Assembly: GCA_021324165.1 (NCBI GenBank)
Contig: JAJPJR010000032.1
Coordinates: 1-36,454, forward strand
Source of the DNA: Armatimonadota bacterium
GTDB lineage: Bacteria; Armatimonadota; Fimbriimonadia; Fimbriimonadales; ATM1
DNA: 36,454 nucleotides
Direction: 5' to 3'
Every line of letters starts with the position of its first letter. Positions within the stretch are counted from its first letter, which is position 1. A program made the translations under genes and the position numbers. Under the pieces are notes generated by a model. The model was not told the DNA's origin and ran no database searches. It was given only the letters and a program-made list of their open reading frames with translations. Shown in pieces: positions 1,769 to 7,561 of the stretch.

Positions 1769-1774
1769 TATAAT
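1769..1774 (+). promoter_or_regulatory. Putative -10 box (TATAAT) for the Cys-rich/membrane/pseudopilin cluster
   Basis: A perfect TATAAT in the 182-bp gap between the divergent DUF1800 gene and the Cys-rich ORF. No convincing TTGACA-like -35 lies at 16-18 bp. A transcript would start near 1781 and give a leader of about 30 nt containing an AGGGGGG run at 1798-1804. Confidence 0.5.
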
Positions 1775-1816
1775 TACTAGCTGACAGAGAACCCACCAGG
1801 GGGGTACTTGCTGCGT

Positions 1817-2326
1817 ATGCCAGATATCGAATCTGCCAGTCGGTCGGCGGTCTCTACTTTGCTCTTTTTCTCGCAGTTGGGACTGATTCTGCTGGAAGAC
1901 CGTCCTAATTCGCCGAATTTTCTGCCCCGAGAAACCTCAGGATGCCACTCTACTGAACCCACGCCGCCTTCCGTTGATCAACCTGCGGAGCAGATCCGGT
2001 CTTCCCGCCATCTCAAGGAACCCGACTCCCAAACTCTGCCTGCCGACAACCTCCCGCTCACCCCCTGCAAGTCGTGTGTTCCGATCAACTCAACGGCGCA
2101 GGACTGGTGCGTACTCCGCCCGCCTGGCACGGACTGCTCGCCTGTTCTGCCCTGGAACAACAACTTCAGCAGGCAAAGAATCTTGTACTGGTACCAGTGT
2201 TCGCAGGGAGTAGCCATCTGCTGCTCTCCGTGGCAAGATAATGACTGTTGCAATGAGTCTCAGGCCGAGCCGGCCTGCTCCGGCGGCGGCGCAACCTACA
2301 GATGCTCAGACCTGAACTGTCCGTAA
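1817..2326 (+). CDS. Cysteine-rich, probably exported protein of unknown function
   Basis: Not a family I recognise. From ATG 1817 it is 169 aa (an in-frame TTG lies at 1808). A hydrophobic segment (STLLFFSQLGLILL) near the N-terminus could be a signal or anchor. The C-terminal half holds 12 of the 13 cysteines, with CKSC, two CC pairs and several lone Cys between Trp, Asn and Pro residues, as in a disulfide-knotted extracellular domain. Its stop lies inside the next gene (25-bp overlap), and that gene overlaps the pseudopilin, suggesting one translationally coupled unit. Support: the upstream TATAAT, the non-random Cys pattern and the coupling. Weakness: the only SD-like run (AGGGGGG) is about 12 nt from the ATG. 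Confidence 0.6.
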   Translation: MPDIESASRSAVSTLLFFSQLGLILLEDRPNSPNFLPRETSGCHSTEPTPPSVDQPAEQIRSSRHLKEPDSQTLPADNLPLTPCKSCVPINSTAQDWCVLRPPGTDCSPVLPWNNNFSRQRILYWYQCSQGVAICCSPWQDNDCCNESQAEPACSGGGATYRCSDLNCP

Positions 2327-2706
2327 AGCACCGCCTTTCACAGATCATCACCTGCGCCGTTTTGTCTTGCGCAATGATCGGCGGAATCAATTTCGTCCTA
2401 TTGTACTTGCTCGGCGGAAGTTCGGCAGGAACTCTGCTCATGCAAGCGGTTTCGCTGGAAACGATTGTGGCATTTTGCACAACAGTGCTCTGCATCCGAC
2501 TCGTTCCAAAATCCGGAACTGCTCCGCTTATCGCTGGGCTCTCGATCATGGCGGCCGCAGGTGCCGGCAGTGTCCTTCGGCTGAGACTAAACCTTTCGCA
2601 CTCTGAACTGTTGGAATGGGTCCTGTTTCTGTTGTATCTGTCTGGCGTTCTGCTCAGCTCTTTGGGCCTTTGTAAACTTCTCCTAAAAACATGGTCAAGC
2701 GATTAA
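2302..2706 (+). CDS. Small polytopic membrane protein of unknown function
   Basis: A 134-aa protein made mostly of hydrophobic helices: roughly residues 14-37, 42-62, 74-90 and 103-127, so probably four membrane spans with short loops and basic flanks. I do not recognise a family. Its start lies within the last codons of the Cys-rich gene and its stop overlaps the pseudopilin start by 16 bp, so the three genes are probably translated from one message by coupling; there is no independent SD. The context suggests that it accompanies an exported Cys-rich protein and a pseudopilin at the cell envelope. That role is inference. Confidence 0.65.
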   Translation: MLRPELSVKHRLSQIITCAVLSCAMIGGINFVLLYLLGGSSAGTLLMQAVSLETIVAFCTTVLCIRLVPKSGTAPLIAGLSIMAAAGAGSVLRLRLNLSHSELLEWVLFLLYLSGVLLSSLGLCKLLLKTWSSD

Positions 2707-3350
2707 ATGCCAGCAGCGGCGCCGGATTCACGCTTGTCGAGCTGCTTGTCAGCGTGTTCATCGTCGCAGTCATGGTCTCGCTGACTTTTGCTGCGTTTCA
2801 GAAGTCCAGGCAGGTCAGCAAACGATCCGGCTGTATTGCACAGCTTCGGCAGCTTGGTGAAGGAATTGAAGTCTATGAACAAGATGCCGGCAGTCTGCCC
2901 CAAGATTTCGATCTTCTTGCGGACACGGGATACCTTGCAGCGCCCCAGATTCTGTTGTGTCCGTCCGACCCGTTCCTCGGTTATTTCAGCGAATTCGCCA
3001 ACTGTCACCAAGGAGGGGTACGCGTCCCTCACCATCGCCAGTCTTACGAAACGAACCTGTGGTGGCCGCAAAACATGAAAACAGCTCTTCAGCAGGCAGA
3101 TCAAAATTATGGAATCGCCGCGTGCCGGCTTCACGCAAATCGCACCGAACTGTTCTCTTCAAACCCAACCCAGTTTTGTTCGAAAGCGTGGCTGATGTTC
3201 GATGGCCCCCTGCTCAGGCTCAGAAAAGATGGGTCGGTTCAAACCGCCCGACTTACGTTGCGCCCCGAACCAAACCTTCAAGGCTCTGGTCTGGGTTTCA
3301 ATGTGTATTGGTTATACACCGACGAAAAAGTTGAACCGCCGCCGCCGTAA
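2691..3350 (+). CDS. Type II secretion/competence-like pseudopilin (class III signal)
   Basis: A 219-aa prepilin-like protein. It has a short basic leader, then G12|FTLVE with Glu at position 5 of the mature protein, followed by a single hydrophobic helix (LLVSVFIVAVMVSLTFAAF): the hallmark of prepilin-peptidase substrates. The long globular part carries several Cys (RSGC, ILLCPSDP, NCH, AAC, FCS) and ends in a proline run. The CPSDP segment resembles that of DUF1559/H-X9-DG-like pseudopilins. It is the third gene of the overlapping cluster starting at 1817. Its stop abuts the stop of the convergent rhaB gene with no gap. It is probably a minor pseudopilin; its partners are not in the window. 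Confidence 0.85.
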   Translation: MVKRLNASSGAGFTLVELLVSVFIVAVMVSLTFAAFQKSRQVSKRSGCIAQLRQLGEGIEVYEQDAGSLPQDFDLLADTGYLAAPQILLCPSDPFLGYFSEFANCHQGGVRVPHHRQSYETNLWWPQNMKTALQQADQNYGIAACRLHANRTELFSSNPTQFCSKAWLMFDGPLLRLRKDGSVQTARLTLRPEPNLQGSGLGFNVYWLYTDEKVEPPPP

Positions 3351-4730
3351 TTATCCACTGCCATTCATCCACTCGATCCACCGATCGTGATGCTTCGGTT
3401 CAAACTCCCGCACGGGCAGATTTCGAACGAGCCTTCGACCCTCGAACAACGCGCTGCCAATCGCGCCGACCGCTTCGAACTGCACAAGCGCGTTGCCCAA
3501 CACGGTCGCCTCCACCGGCCCCGCAAGTACCGTTTTCCCAGCGGCGTCGGCGGTCATCTGGTTGAGCAGTTCGTTCTGCGAGCCGCCGCCCACAAGATGA
3601 ATTGTGTGAATCTCCTTTCCTTGAATCTTTTCGATCTGCGCGATGTTGCGAGCATAGGCGGCGGCAAGGTTTTCAAAGATCGCCCGGAACAACGAAGGTT
3701 CATCTTCGATCGGCGCATCCGCAAGGCTGCGGATCGCGGCGGCCATGTCGGGCGGGTTAATCAACGAGGAGTCATCGGGATCGAACCTCGCCGCAAACGG
3801 CGCGGCGCGTTTGGCGAGTTCGATGCATTCCACCGCGGATTTTGAGCCGCGCGTGCGTTCCAAAAGCCACAACCCGCTGCAGTTTTTCAAGAACCTGAAC
3901 GTCCCGCCATATCCACGCTCGTTGCCGAAGCCGTGCGCCGCGGCTTCCTCGGTTGTGATCGGCGAATCTGTTTCAACACCGACGATGGACCAAGTTCCCG
4001 AAGATAAAAACGCCCAGCCGCCGCTTTGCGCAGGACAAGCAAGCACCGCCGACGCGGTATCGTGCGAAGCAACGGTTCTCAACTGAATGCCGTTCACGCT
4101 GCCGAGCAATCGGCCTGCCGGTTCTGCATCCCGAAGCAGCGAACCAGAAACACCGATCCTATCGAGCAGTTCTTGGTCCCATCGGCCATCCAGTGCAAGC
4201 ATTTCGGTTGTAGATGCGATCGTCTGTTCGAACGCAGGCTTGGCGTTCGCAAGCATGGATGCCAACAGATCGGGCATCATCGCGAGCGTCGCAGCGTTCT
4301 CAAGTTCATCATCATTGCGCAGTTTGCGCGCCATCAACTGCGAAGCGGTATTGAACGGCAGCGGTTGAATCCCGATGCGATTGAAGTGACGCAGCGGATT
4401 CAACGCCTTTTGCAAATGCGCGAACCCCGCGTGGTGCGAAGGGTCCCGATACCGGATCGGATTCGCAACCAGTTCATCGCGGCGGTTCAGCAATCCAAAA
4501 TCAACACCCCACGTGTCAATGCCCGCAGAGATCGCATCGCCGGCGCGCGAAAGCCCTATGTTGATGTTGGCGATCAGGTCGGGAATCAGCCATCTTTCAA
4601 ATCCGTTTTGAATGCCGCATGGGGTTTCAAATCTGTGCAGCTCTTCGATTTTCAGCTGCGAACCTTGAAGCGCGACCGCAGCGACGCGGCCCGAAGACGC
4701 ACCCAAATCAATTGCAATCACTTTGGCCAT
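3351..4730 (-). CDS. rhaB: Rhamnulokinase (FGGY kinase)
   Basis: A 459-aa FGGY carbohydrate kinase that would phosphorylate L-rhamnulose to L-rhamnulose 1-phosphate using ATP. The N-terminal phosphate loop is IDLGASSGR (residues 7-15). SAGIDTWGVDFGLL, the YRDPSH stretch and GIQPLPFNTASQL are the features that separate RhaB from xylulokinase and glycerol kinase. FLSSGTWSIVGVE and HLVGGGSQNELLNQMTADA form the C-terminal ATP-binding half. The length is close to the family norm. No other rhamnose gene (rhaA, rhaD, transporter) is nearby, so the pathway is dispersed. On the minus strand a TACGAT lies 15 nt before the ATG, a possible -10. The divergent GNAT gene starts 68 bp away. Confidence 0.92.
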   Translation of the reverse strand: MAKVIAIDLGASSGRVAAVALQGSQLKIEELHRFETPCGIQNGFERWLIPDLIANINIGLSRAGDAISAGIDTWGVDFGLLNRRDELVANPIRYRDPSHHAGFAHLQKALNPLRHFNRIGIQPLPFNTASQLMARKLRNDDELENAATLAMMPDLLASMLANAKPAFEQTIASTTEMLALDGRWDQELLDRIGVSGSLLRDAEPAGRLLGSVNGIQLRTVASHDTASAVLACPAQSGGWAFLSSGTWSIVGVETDSPITTEEAAAHGFGNERGYGGTFRFLKNCSGLWLLERTRGSKSAVECIELAKRAAPFAARFDPDDSSLINPPDMAAAIRSLADAPIEDEPSLFRAIFENLAAAYARNIAQIEKIQGKEIHTIHLVGGGSQNELLNQMTADAAGKTVLAGPVEATVLGNALVQFEAVGAIGSALFEGRRLVRNLPVREFEPKHHDRWIEWMNGSG

Positions 4731-4782
4731 GCCGTTTCAAAACAGATCGTACCGAACCCTGAAAACACGCGGCACGGCGTTG

Positions 4783-4788
4783 CATACT
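4783..4788 (+). promoter_or_regulatory. Putative -10 box (CATACT), leaderless start of GNAT gene
   Basis: CATACT ends 10 nt before ATG 4799 and there is no SD in between, so transcription would begin almost at the start codon. Confidence 0.45.
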
Positions 4789-4798
4789 CGATAACTCC

Positions 4799-5356
4799 AT
4801 GTGCCCGCCCGAAGGTTTGCGAATCGAGATGGCATCGCGCGAAGACCCCCGCGTGCACCTCGTGCCCGATTCGCTGCGGTTCGTCTATGAATCTTCGTAT
4901 CAGTACGAACTGGAGCCGCGCGAGACCGCGGTCGGATTTTCTTTTGTGCTGGCGCGCCGAGGCGCGAAACCGCCGCTTCACGTGGAGCGCAAGTGGGTTC
5001 CGTTCGAATCGGGGCCGAATGCGAGGTGTTACGTGGCTTGGCTGAACGGCAAACCGGTCGGCTGCGCCGAGTTCACCATCAAGGAGCCCGAACGTGAATG
5101 TGTGATCTCGCTGCTGCTCGTAGCCCAAGAGCATCGGCGGCAGGGCATCGGCAGGGCGCTCCTTGGCATTGTGGAACAAGCGGGGCGCCACGCCCGCAGC
5201 CCGCACATTCTGGTCTCGTGCCAGGCGGTCAACTTGGGCTCGATCGAGGCCCTTCGGCGCTGCGGGTTCGACTTTTGGGGAGTTTTTTCGCGGCCCACGC
5301 TCGGGCCGGAAGTCGAAATCACCCTCGGAAAGCCGATTGCCGCCGCAAATCGGTAA
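4799..5356 (+). CDS. GNAT-family N-acetyltransferase
   Basis: A 185-aa protein with an acetyl-CoA-binding GNAT fold in its second half. The core is CYVAWLNGKPVGCAEFTI (beta strands), then ISLLLVAQEHRRQGIGRALL, the motif A with the R/Q-x-x-G-x-G/A pyrophosphate loop, followed by NLGSIEALRRCGF, the usual motif B region. The first 75 residues are a poorly conserved N-terminal extension. The substrate cannot be read from sequence; streptothricin-acetyltransferase-like GNATs have a similar layout. The gene is divergent from rhaB and appears leaderless. A 61-codon ORF with two CxxCG motifs begins immediately after its stop codon. Confidence 0.85.
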   Translation: MCPPEGLRIEMASREDPRVHLVPDSLRFVYESSYQYELEPRETAVGFSFVLARRGAKPPLHVERKWVPFESGPNARCYVAWLNGKPVGCAEFTIKEPERECVISLLLVAQEHRRQGIGRALLGIVEQAGRHARSPHILVSCQAVNLGSIEALRRCGFDFWGVFSRPTLGPEVEITLGKPIAAANR

Positions 5357-5545: not shown

Positions 5546-5866
5546 ATGAACAAGAGACTGATTTCGCTCCTCATCGGAGCGACCCTGATTGGCGGCATCG
5601 TTCTTGCCGGGTGCAGCGGCGGAGAGAACAACTCCACCGACGGAACCAGCGGCACGAAGGCGACCAACGGCACCGGCGGAACCGGAACCGGCGAAATGGG
5701 TACCGGCTCGACCGGCTCCGGCGGAACCGGAACCGGCGAAATGGGTACTGGCTCGACCGGCGCCGGCGGAACCGGTACCGGCGAAATGGGCTCCGGCTCG
5801 ACCGGCACCGGCGGAACCGGGGCTGGCGGAACTGGAACCGGCGCCGAGAAGAAGAGCGGCGGCTAA
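5546..5866 (+). CDS. Gly/Thr-rich repeat lipoprotein
   Basis: A 106-aa protein with a strong SD (CAGGAGG) about 7 nt before the ATG. It has a basic n-region (MNKR), a hydrophobic core and lipobox LAGC, so Cys23 would be lipidated and the protein anchored to a membrane. The rest is low complexity: three copies of a 15-residue unit of the form GTGTGEMGTGSTGxG (residues 45-89) plus a partial fourth copy, ending in EKKSGG. There is no folded domain. The repeat is nearly identical at DNA level, so copy number probably varies between strains. It is transcribed as a single gene or with the preceding small ORF and is followed by a strong terminator. Function unknown. Confidence 0.88.
   Translation: MNKRLISLLIGATLIGGIVLAGCSGGENNSTDGTSGTKATNGTGGTGTGEMGTGSTGSGGTGTGEMGTGSTGAGGTGTGEMGSGSTGTGGTGAGGTGTGAEKKSGG
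5678..5812 (+). repeat. Three tandem 45-bp repeats inside the lipoprotein gene
   Basis: Units begin at 5678, 5723 and 5768, each encoding 15 residues (GTGTGEMG-type). The copies differ by a few bases; a partial copy follows. They are in frame, so gain or loss of a unit keeps the reading frame. Confidence 0.9.
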
Positions 5867-5937: not shown

Positions 5938-6265
5938 TGAGAGTCGGCCGGGCGGCGGCTCCGGCAAATGCCGGAGAGGAAAGTCCGGGCTCCAAAGGGC
6001 AGAGCGCCCCGATGGGAAATCGGGGGCGAAGCGATTCGACGGAAAGTGCAACAGAAAAAACACCGCCTCGGCTTGCCGGGGTAAGGGTGAAAAAGTGAGG
6101 TAAGAGCTCACTCCGATTCGTGGCAACGCGTTCGGTGGCAAACCCCGCTCGGAGCAAGGCCTAATAGGAAGGGGATGATGCGGCCCGCGGACCCTTCGGG
6201 TTGGCCGCTTAGACAGATCGCCGCACAAAGACAGAACCCGGCTTACAGGCCGGCTCTCGCTTCTG
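5938..6265 (+). ncRNA. rnpB: RNase P RNA, bacterial type A
   Basis: The catalytic RNA that removes 5' leaders from pre-tRNA. The conserved GAGGAAAGTCCGGGCTC is at 5976-5992, the internal AGAGCTCACTCCG and AGCAAGGCCTAATAGG regions are present, and the 3' conserved ACAGAACCCGGCTTACAGG begins at 6231, with its pairing to the 5' region (P4) intact. Helix P1 is formed by GAGAG at 5939-5943 with CTCTC at 6254-6258. The order of segments and the roughly 325-nt length fit the ancestral type A fold. Ends are set from P1 and the upstream -10 and may be off by several bases. Confidence 0.95.
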
Positions 6266-6298
6266 AACCAAATCAGCCCTGGCGAACGGAAGGAGTTG

Positions 6299-6450
6299 GG
6301 ATTCCACGCTCCCCCCTGCATATAGGGGGGAGCCCCGTGAGCGAAGCGAACGGTGAAGGGGGTTTTACCAAGCGGTGGACCCCCTTCCGGCGCTTCGCGC
6401 CACCTTCCCCCTAACGGCAGGGGGAAGGATAGAGATAGGATTCCACGCTC
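6299..6450. repeat. Hairpin-rich intergenic element bounded by 13-bp direct repeats
   Basis: GGATTCCACGCTC occurs at 6299-6311 and again at 6438-6450. Between them lie nested inverted repeats: a 10-bp stem at 6308-6317/6324-6333 (GCTCCCCCCT), GAAGGGGG/CCCCCTTC at 6355-6362/6380-6387, GGCG-GCGCC around 6389-6401, and a 10-bp stem CCTTCCCCCT/AGGGGGAAGG at 6403-6412/6419-6428. There is no coding sequence. It resembles a REP/MITE-like non-coding repeat inserted between rnpB and the response regulator. A related copy of its right half is at 30076-30128. Confidence 0.7.
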
Positions 6451-6511
6451 GAGGCTCGTTTCGAGGCCTCGACCTGCCGAAAATACTAACAGGTTACAGC
6501 GGAGCCTTGAA

Positions 6512-7561
6512 GTGAGCGGCGGAAGAATTAAGCGCGAATCGCGCATCCTCATAATTGACGACGACCCTCAAAACGTGCTGCTCCTGGAGCGGATGTTGGA
6601 ATGGGCAGGATTCGACCGGGTGTATGCAGCAAGCGACCCCACAAAAGTTTCGCAAACCTATGACGAGGTGGATCCCGATCTTGTGCTGTTGGATCTGCAC
6701 ATGCCCCAAGTTGATGGGTTTCAAGTTTTAGAAATCCTGAAAGCGAAATCGCCCGATGTGATCGTTCCGGTTCTTGTGTTCACAGCCGATGTGACGCGCG
6801 ACGCTAAAGAGAAGGCGCTGAAAGCAGGCGCGCATGACTTCTTGACAAAACCCGGCGACCCGGCAGACATCGTCTTGCGCGTAAACAACTTTCTGCACGT
6901 TCGAAGACTTCAACAAGAGCTGGTTGATTACAACTTGCACTTAGAAAAGCGTGTGGCGGAGCGGACAAAACTGCTTGCCACCGCGTATCAAGAAGTTTTA
7001 GACAGGCTGGCCATCGCCGCAGAATTTAGAGACGATGAGACCGGTGAACACGCCCAGCGCGTCGGCGATCTATCTGCGGCGATTGCAGCCGAATTGGGAT
7101 TCGACGAACCTTATTGCGCTCTCATCCGGTCGGCAGCTCGTCTTCACGACATCGGCAAAATCGGCGTTCCCGACGCCATTCTCTTGAAAAAATCCACGCT
7201 CACCAAAGAAGAGTTTTTGCAGATGCAGCTGCACACCGTCATCGGCTCGCAAATTCTTGCCAACGGTCAAAGCGATCTGATCAAAATGGCCGAAGTGATT
7301 GCGCGAACGCATCATGAAAAATGGGACGGCACCGGATATCACGCAAAACTGAAAGGGGATGAGATTCCCATCGAAGGCCGCATTGTGGCCGTGGCCGATG
7401 TGTTCGATGCGCTCACAAGCGAAAGGCCGTATAAGCCCGCGTGGCCGCTCGACGATGCTCTGAATGAGATTCAAGCCCACGCCGGCACGATGTACGACCC
7501 CTCAGTGGTTGAAGCGTTGATGCGAACGGAACACTCCGCCGCGCGCCGGCGGGCAGCATAA
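6512..7561 (+). CDS. Response regulator with HD-GYP-type output domain
   Basis: From GTG 6512 (GGAG 7 nt upstream) this is 349 aa. Residues 10-128 form a receiver domain: acidic pocket IDDD (15-18), phosphoacceptor Asp61 in LLDLHMP, and Lys113 in TKPGD. A helical linker (about 131-165) leads to an HD-GYP domain with metal ligands HD (212-213, LHDIGKIGVPD), THHEKWDG (266-273) and VADVFDAL. Such proteins usually hydrolyse cyclic di-GMP in response to phosphorylation. The signature GYP tripeptide reads GYH (residues 275-277), a deviation from the family. No sensor kinase is adjacent. The frame stays open upstream through the repeat element, but no SD or homology supports a longer start. Confidence 0.93.
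   Translation: MSGGRIKRESRILIIDDDPQNVLLLERMLEWAGFDRVYAASDPTKVSQTYDEVDPDLVLLDLHMPQVDGFQVLEILKAKSPDVIVPVLVFTADVTRDAKEKALKAGAHDFLTKPGDPADIVLRVNNFLHVRRLQQELVDYNLHLEKRVAERTKLLATAYQEVLDRLAIAAEFRDDETGEHAQRVGDLSAAIAAELGFDEPYCALIRSAARLHDIGKIGVPDAILLKKSTLTKEEFLQMQLHTVIGSQILANGQSDLIKMAEVIARTHHEKWDGTGYHAKLKGDEIPIEGRIVAVADVFDALTSERPYKPAWPLDDALNEIQAHAGTMYDPSVVEALMRTEHSAARRRAA

Follow-up and report, generated by a model that had tools for sequence, protein, structure and literature searches.

The closest working model for an exported protein that cooperates with pilins is PilC/PilY1 of the type IVa pilus (Neisseria, Myxococcus), a Sec-exported non-pilin that acts with minor pilins. PilY1 itself is large and carries a beta-propeller domain at its C-terminus. 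Together, PilY1 and the minor pilins constitute the tip and priming complex of the filament (PMC7541494), and in Neisseria a G tract of 9-20 inside the gene makes pilC phase-variable (PMC5953494). Small polytopic inner-membrane proteins encoded beside pilins have also been described, namely the pilin accessory proteins TfpX/TfpY/TfpZ (FimB), for which a role as chaperone or adapter in pilus initiation has been proposed (PMC11841053). In the Fimbriimonadia, pseudopilins of the COG2165/PulG and DUF1559 types occur in many copies, and F. ginsengisoli carries 79 PulG-like genes, 65 of them with the methylation motif (PMC4072686). Another multi-gene set with prepilin-type proteins is the Verru_Chthon cassette (NCBIfam TIGR02596-TIGR02600). 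To our knowledge, this cassette has no Cys-rich partner.

The window analysed here, a stretch of 36,454 nucleotides from an Armatimonadota bacterium (assembly GCA_021324165.1, contig JAJPJR010000032.1), harbors at 1817-3350 three overlapping genes, all on the plus strand, which encode a Cys-rich protein (A), a protein with four transmembrane (TM) segments (B) and a prepilin (C). The coordinates confirm the layout described in the first-pass annotation, with an A/B overlap of 25 bp (2302-2326) and a B/C overlap of 16 bp (2691-2706) behind one TATAAT (Table 1). Its description of the products holds as well: the first carries 12 Cys near its C-terminus, the second four hydrophobic segments corresponding to the predicted spans, and the third a prepilin signal above the N_methyl cut-off together with five Cys. 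The trio is flanked by a DUF1800 gene and by a gene for an FGGY-family carbohydrate kinase, both on the minus strand, and the same genome encodes a prepilin peptidase and PilB/PilT-type ATPases. Elsewhere in the window, 5546-5866 encodes a predicted lipoprotein built from Gly-Thr-Gly-Glu-Met/Ser repeats. Literature searches returned no description of such a three-gene module, nor of the pairing of C with A and B.

Table 1. Features of the trio in the window, and G/C tracts and sigma-like genes at A in related loci (positions within the named locus; tract lengths are those of draft metagenome assemblies, with a possible error of one)
Feature	Position	Strand	Remarks
-10-like TATAAT ahead of the trio	1769..1774	+	from sequence; consensus only, no good -35
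GGGGGG, Shine-Dalgarno-like	1799..1804	+	G6, below the length callable as a phase-variable tract
Gene A, exported Cys-rich protein (predicted), 169 aa	1817..2326	+	ATG start; conserved in relatives
Hydrophobic N-terminal segment of A (signal peptide or anchor)	1847..1897	+	from sequence; aligns with clear signal peptides of relatives
Cys domain of A, residues 84-168	2066..2320	+	12 Cys; predicted four beta strands
Gene B, 134 aa, four TM segments	2302..2706	+	predicted N-in/C-in; fused to prepilin in two relatives
Gene C, prepilin, 219 aa	2691..3350	+	subfamily ending G-x-LLRLRKDGSVQ...LYTD
Class-III prepilin leader of C, 12 residues	2691..2726	+	GAG^FTLVE (cleavage G^F); from sequence, N_methyl match
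Tract in L068	5068		G12; in frame
Tract in L104 (L104a)	3744		G15; in frame
Tract in L043	7865		C11; in frame
Tract in L104 (L104b)	6492		G10; leader and Cys domain in different frames
Tract in L106	5126		G9; leader and Cys domain in different frames
Tract in L112	3488		G10; leader and Cys domain in different frames
ECF sigma-like genes 5' of A	L104 5830-6519; L102 oriented 4133-4888; L112 2820-3500; L106 oriented 3198-3896; L185 oriented 2831-3706		

C and A were matched together, in the same order and with the same spacing, in genomes G027, G025 (two loci), G004 and G005, and every time the gap between them holds a B-like four-TM gene. A comparison of G025 with G027 shows one nucleotide change in A and seven in B, all eight synonymous and at third codon positions, with no amino acid replaced in either protein. 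At E <= 0.001, iterated A profiles found relatives in 26 of the phylum's 291 genomes, of which one (locus L190) is probably false; this amounts to about 35 Cys-rich relatives in about 25 genomes. These belong to two families besides that of the window within the order and to at least two families outside it, and the spread is patchy, the module being present in 3 of the 8 genomes of the window's own family. Where the flank is long enough, nearly every relative of A is closely followed, on the same strand, by a pilin of the C subfamily, the gene order being A-B-C or A-C-B. Six-frame scans of the loci, with one profile for A and one for the globular part of C, located a same-strand C downstream in 36 of 36 A genes, some of which had been selected through their pilin; a fairer test is offered by the 11 hits obtained only with the last A profile, eight of which have the pilin, most of these with a TM gene, while of the remaining three one lies at a contig end and L190 and L191 show no visible pilin. 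Weak profile matches were left out of the members, namely L190 (no adjoining pilin), L183 (contig end), L191 (no pilin by motif scan) and G110. A scan of genome contigs gave none with A alone and, with the pilin, two loci that were already known, in G025 and G004. In G005, A at L041 7290-7732 carries a mid-gene one-base frameshift, either an error or real decay. Whether the trio recurs in other Armatimonadota is thus answered in the affirmative by about 35 loci with the same order and strand, and the earlier reservation, that the frame at 1817-2326 might lack counterparts in relatives, is contradicted by the conservation of both frame and Cys pattern in distant ones. Judged from these sequence comparisons, the trio is a real conserved functional unit.

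Gene A, for which an alternative in-frame TTG start lies at 1808, encodes 13 Cys in total, 12 of them within residues 84-168. Ten of these 12 match columns at least 90% conserved among 22 aligned relatives, which settles in the affirmative whether the Cys positions are kept; one Arg and one Trp are also conserved in this alignment. The signal peptide of window A, MPDIESASRSAVSTLLFFSQLGLILLEDRP, is weaker than those of its relatives, with no clear A-x-A and an acidic n-region, and consequently the exact start or cleavage site is uncertain. A has no relatives in Pfam, NCBIfam, PADLOC or PDB, and a plasmid search with it gave zero matches. AlphaFold models from three-row alignments were poor (pLDDT 50); that of A places four strands at residues 88-145 (pLDDT about 60-77), and Foldseek and VIA searches with this weak model returned no significant fold, and none to a known adhesin. 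The light chain of methylamine dehydrogenase, a candidate prompted by the richness in Cys and by a MauE gene in L108, was dropped because A matches no solved structure and no Pfam family. Near the two modules of L104 a further small secreted Cys-rich protein, unmatched by the A profile, is encoded at 2139-2510. The T4P_PilY1 domain (PF05567) is absent from window A and from the 14 A-family members scanned with Pfam. A search for PilY1 across 113 genomes was blank for control genomes too and is given no weight here. Unlike PilC/PilY1, A proteins are about 100-200 aa long, Cys-rich and without a Pfam match, and whereas PilC/PilY1 systems comprise a minor-pilin operon, here one pilin is accompanied by an extra four-TM protein. 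By the features tested, A is not a PilY1, nor is it homologous to PilY1.

C passes both the Pfam N_methyl model PF07963 (22.9 bits, cut-off 21.2) and TIGR02532 (19.3, cut-off 16.3), and has Cys at residues 48, 90, 105, 145 and 163. Its subfamily ends in G-x-LLRLRKDGSVQ...(F/Y)TD, and three Cys are common to most members. The weak AlphaFold model, also from a three-row alignment, starts with a long helix and has a sheet at its C-terminus; LOV/PAS matches to it were set aside, as they cover only about 40 residues of low confidence. C is one of the many prepilin-like proteins of the Fimbriimonadia, but in contrast to the many-copy pseudopilins its subfamily has its own Cys pattern, the LLRLRKDGSVQ/TD ending and the pairing with A and B. 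The DUF1559 model (SBP_bac_10, PF07596) fails on C, with 17.1 bits against a cut-off of 23.3 and residues 37-71 only, and the Verru_Chthon C and D models match it weakly via the N-terminus, far below their cut-offs.

Taking these features together, we hypothesize that the trio is a self-contained minor-pilin module, a reading to which we assign about even chances. A would be a tip or surface protein rich in disulfides, C its carrier and B a partner in assembly, and the module would operate much as PilC/PilY1 does with minor pilins. The prepilin peptidase would process C, which would then become part of a type IV filament or pseudopilus, whereas A would be exported by Sec and fold in the periplasm as a small disulfide-stapled beta domain. 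By contacting A, C would then carry it at the surface, most likely at the filament tip, where A may serve as a variable adhesin-like or contact protein, and B is expected to be a four-helix inner-membrane partner of C that helps it to load A or to become incorporated into the filament. Several relatives carry a G/C tract behind the signal-peptide codons of A, and slipped-strand changes there would switch A on and off, as the poly-G tract does for Neisseria pilC. Against the pilus-tip model stand the absence of a long tract from window A, the lack of homology or fold match to any known adhesin, and the pilin loci L042, L044, L113 and L114, which have no A.

B and C are linked directly by gene fusions. 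The hydrophobic segments of B span residues 18-34, 49-65, 76-92 and 107-123, leaving a C-terminus of 11 residues, and the charge balance suggests an N-in/C-in topology; across relatives almost no residues are conserved, and the four TM segments are kept in most loci. In G087 (L062, oriented 6222-7304) and G013 (L066, 5864-6907), which represent two genera, B and the prepilin are encoded as a single open reading frame, in which no ATG, GTG or TTG occurs from the last TM segment to the cleavage site. Given these in-frame fusions, B and C are likely to act together, and a fusion of four TM segments with both ends inside would place the leader site in the cytoplasm, where prepilin peptidase cuts and may process it. 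Like TfpX/TfpY/TfpZ, B is a small polytopic inner-membrane protein encoded beside a pilin. TfpY-like proteins, however, combine three TM helices with a C-terminal globular domain in the periplasm, whereas B consists of four TM segments, lacks a globular domain and in two genera is fused to the prepilin. Hence B resembles the TfpY-like proteins in its proposed role, not in architecture, and by the features tested it is not a TfpY. The behavior of B also bears on a different explanation, in which A would act as a secreted bacteriocin rich in disulfides, B, as a polytopic membrane protein, would confer immunity to it, and C would deliver or export A. This would account for a Cys domain far more variable than the A leader and for the fast divergence of a four-TM B, and laterosporulin (6lwy), a bacteriocin with a defensin-like fold, does appear in the weak fold list of A (Z 3.1, rmsd 2.6, 47/49 residues). 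Nevertheless, that score is shared by cystatins and COMMD proteins, A has no PADLOC match, and B tracks not A but the pilin, to which it is fused in two genera and beside which it persists at L042, L113 and L114, where A is missing. We consider a toxin with its immunity protein rather unlikely.

A second line of evidence is provided by repeat tracts in related loci. In several relatives, a G/C tract of 9-15 lies just behind the signal-peptide codons of A or just 5' of its start; those inside A lie around +53 to +128 nt, either within the signal-peptide codons or right after them (Table 1), and at L064 2058 (G9) and L100 5809 (G10) the run precedes the A start by 34-36 nt. The G9 of L064 sits between TTGACA and TACTTT and is possibly a promoter-spacer switch. 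G/C runs of at least nine are rare genome-wide; the 392 kb of fetched loci contain 12, nine of which fall in A or within 60 bp upstream, that is, in 5% of the fetched sequence (binomial P = 4e-10 for an enrichment noticed after the fact, in loci that were not selected by tracts). Window A has no such tract, its longest G run being the G6 of Table 1, and for this reason no switching is claimed for it. In G032, two tandem modules have a common 236-nt 5' block (96% identity), spanning the sigma tail, leader, G tract and a GGCGC motif, and no other detectable DNA similarity, and L068 and L110 share a 286-nt block (92%) with the same end point, which suggests, at the level of DNA comparison, a constant 5' part with exchanged 3' parts. 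By analogy with Neisseria pilC, the tracts, the shared 5' blocks with unrelated 3' parts and the ECF sigma genes described below may be regarded as marks of a phase-variable surface protein.

The tracts would also favor a surface-exposed A, adhesin or tip, over mere cargo, and thereby weigh against the possibility that C is a dedicated pseudopilin pushing out A as the soluble product of a type II-like system. That possibility draws on the best-scoring models for C, GspG and ComGC, both below their cut-offs (GspG, TIGR01710, reaches 25.9 bits against 88.85 and only at the N-terminus), and on A being small and predicted to be Sec-exported, like substrates of type II secretion. We know of no one-to-one pairing of type II pseudopilins with cargo, and we regard the secretion of soluble cargo as unlikely. 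If the tracts and exchanged segments are joined to the pilus-tip model, a broader proposal can be formulated. The modules would then belong to a family of pilus-tip cassettes that is variable in both phase and sequence and unrelated to PilY1. Leader and G tract would stay constant, the short disulfide-stapled surface domain behind them would be exchanged, and its loading would fall to a four-helix membrane protein that can itself be a giant prepilin leader, as a 4TM-prepilin fusion cut by prepilin peptidase. We consider this possible but doubtful.

In several f2 and f19 modules an ECF sigma gene is located directly upstream of A and overlaps its leader codons (Table 1), and in L112 and L185 the sigma frame continues into the Cys domain. 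This arrangement would suit a surface sensor in which A, B and C perceive contact or the redox state and pass the signal to an ECF sigma factor. However, the window and its nearest relatives have no sigma gene at the locus, the sigma factor may simply drive transcription of the module, and B has no soluble anti-sigma domain; such a sensor seems very unlikely to us. At another locus (L108 2759-4330, in G214), the start of A is overlapped by a gene that encodes a MauE domain together with a redoxin-like part. This gene, which is absent at the window, fits disulfide formation in the periplasm and hints at a dedicated pathway for it. That A does not code for a protein, or is decaying next to an ordinary pilin, as the weak window signal peptide, the frameshift in G005 and the loss or breakage of A in some g12 loci might suggest, is hardly credible and is refuted by the conservation of the frame, with the Cys pattern kept over 22 sequences and the silent changes between G025 and G027. 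Overall, the toxin-immunity, soluble cargo and sensor readings explain less than the pilus-tip model. The first-pass suggestion, in which a pseudopilus displays or exports a disulfide-rich cargo or adhesin, therefore survives in part: the three-gene unit in about 35 loci, the B-prepilin fusions and the MauE-redoxin gene speak for it, its adhesin part finds no homology to a known adhesin, and the mechanism is one that we infer.

Genomes of the Fimbriimonadia group contain tens of pilin-like genes without an assigned job, and the module described here ties one subfamily of them to an exported protein and a dedicated membrane partner, giving a testable division of labour for that subfamily. In a phylum that has received little study, phase-variation tracts would indicate a surface structure exposed to shifting selection, for instance by phage, grazers or attachment. 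The 4TM-prepilin fusions would broaden the notion of a prepilin leader.
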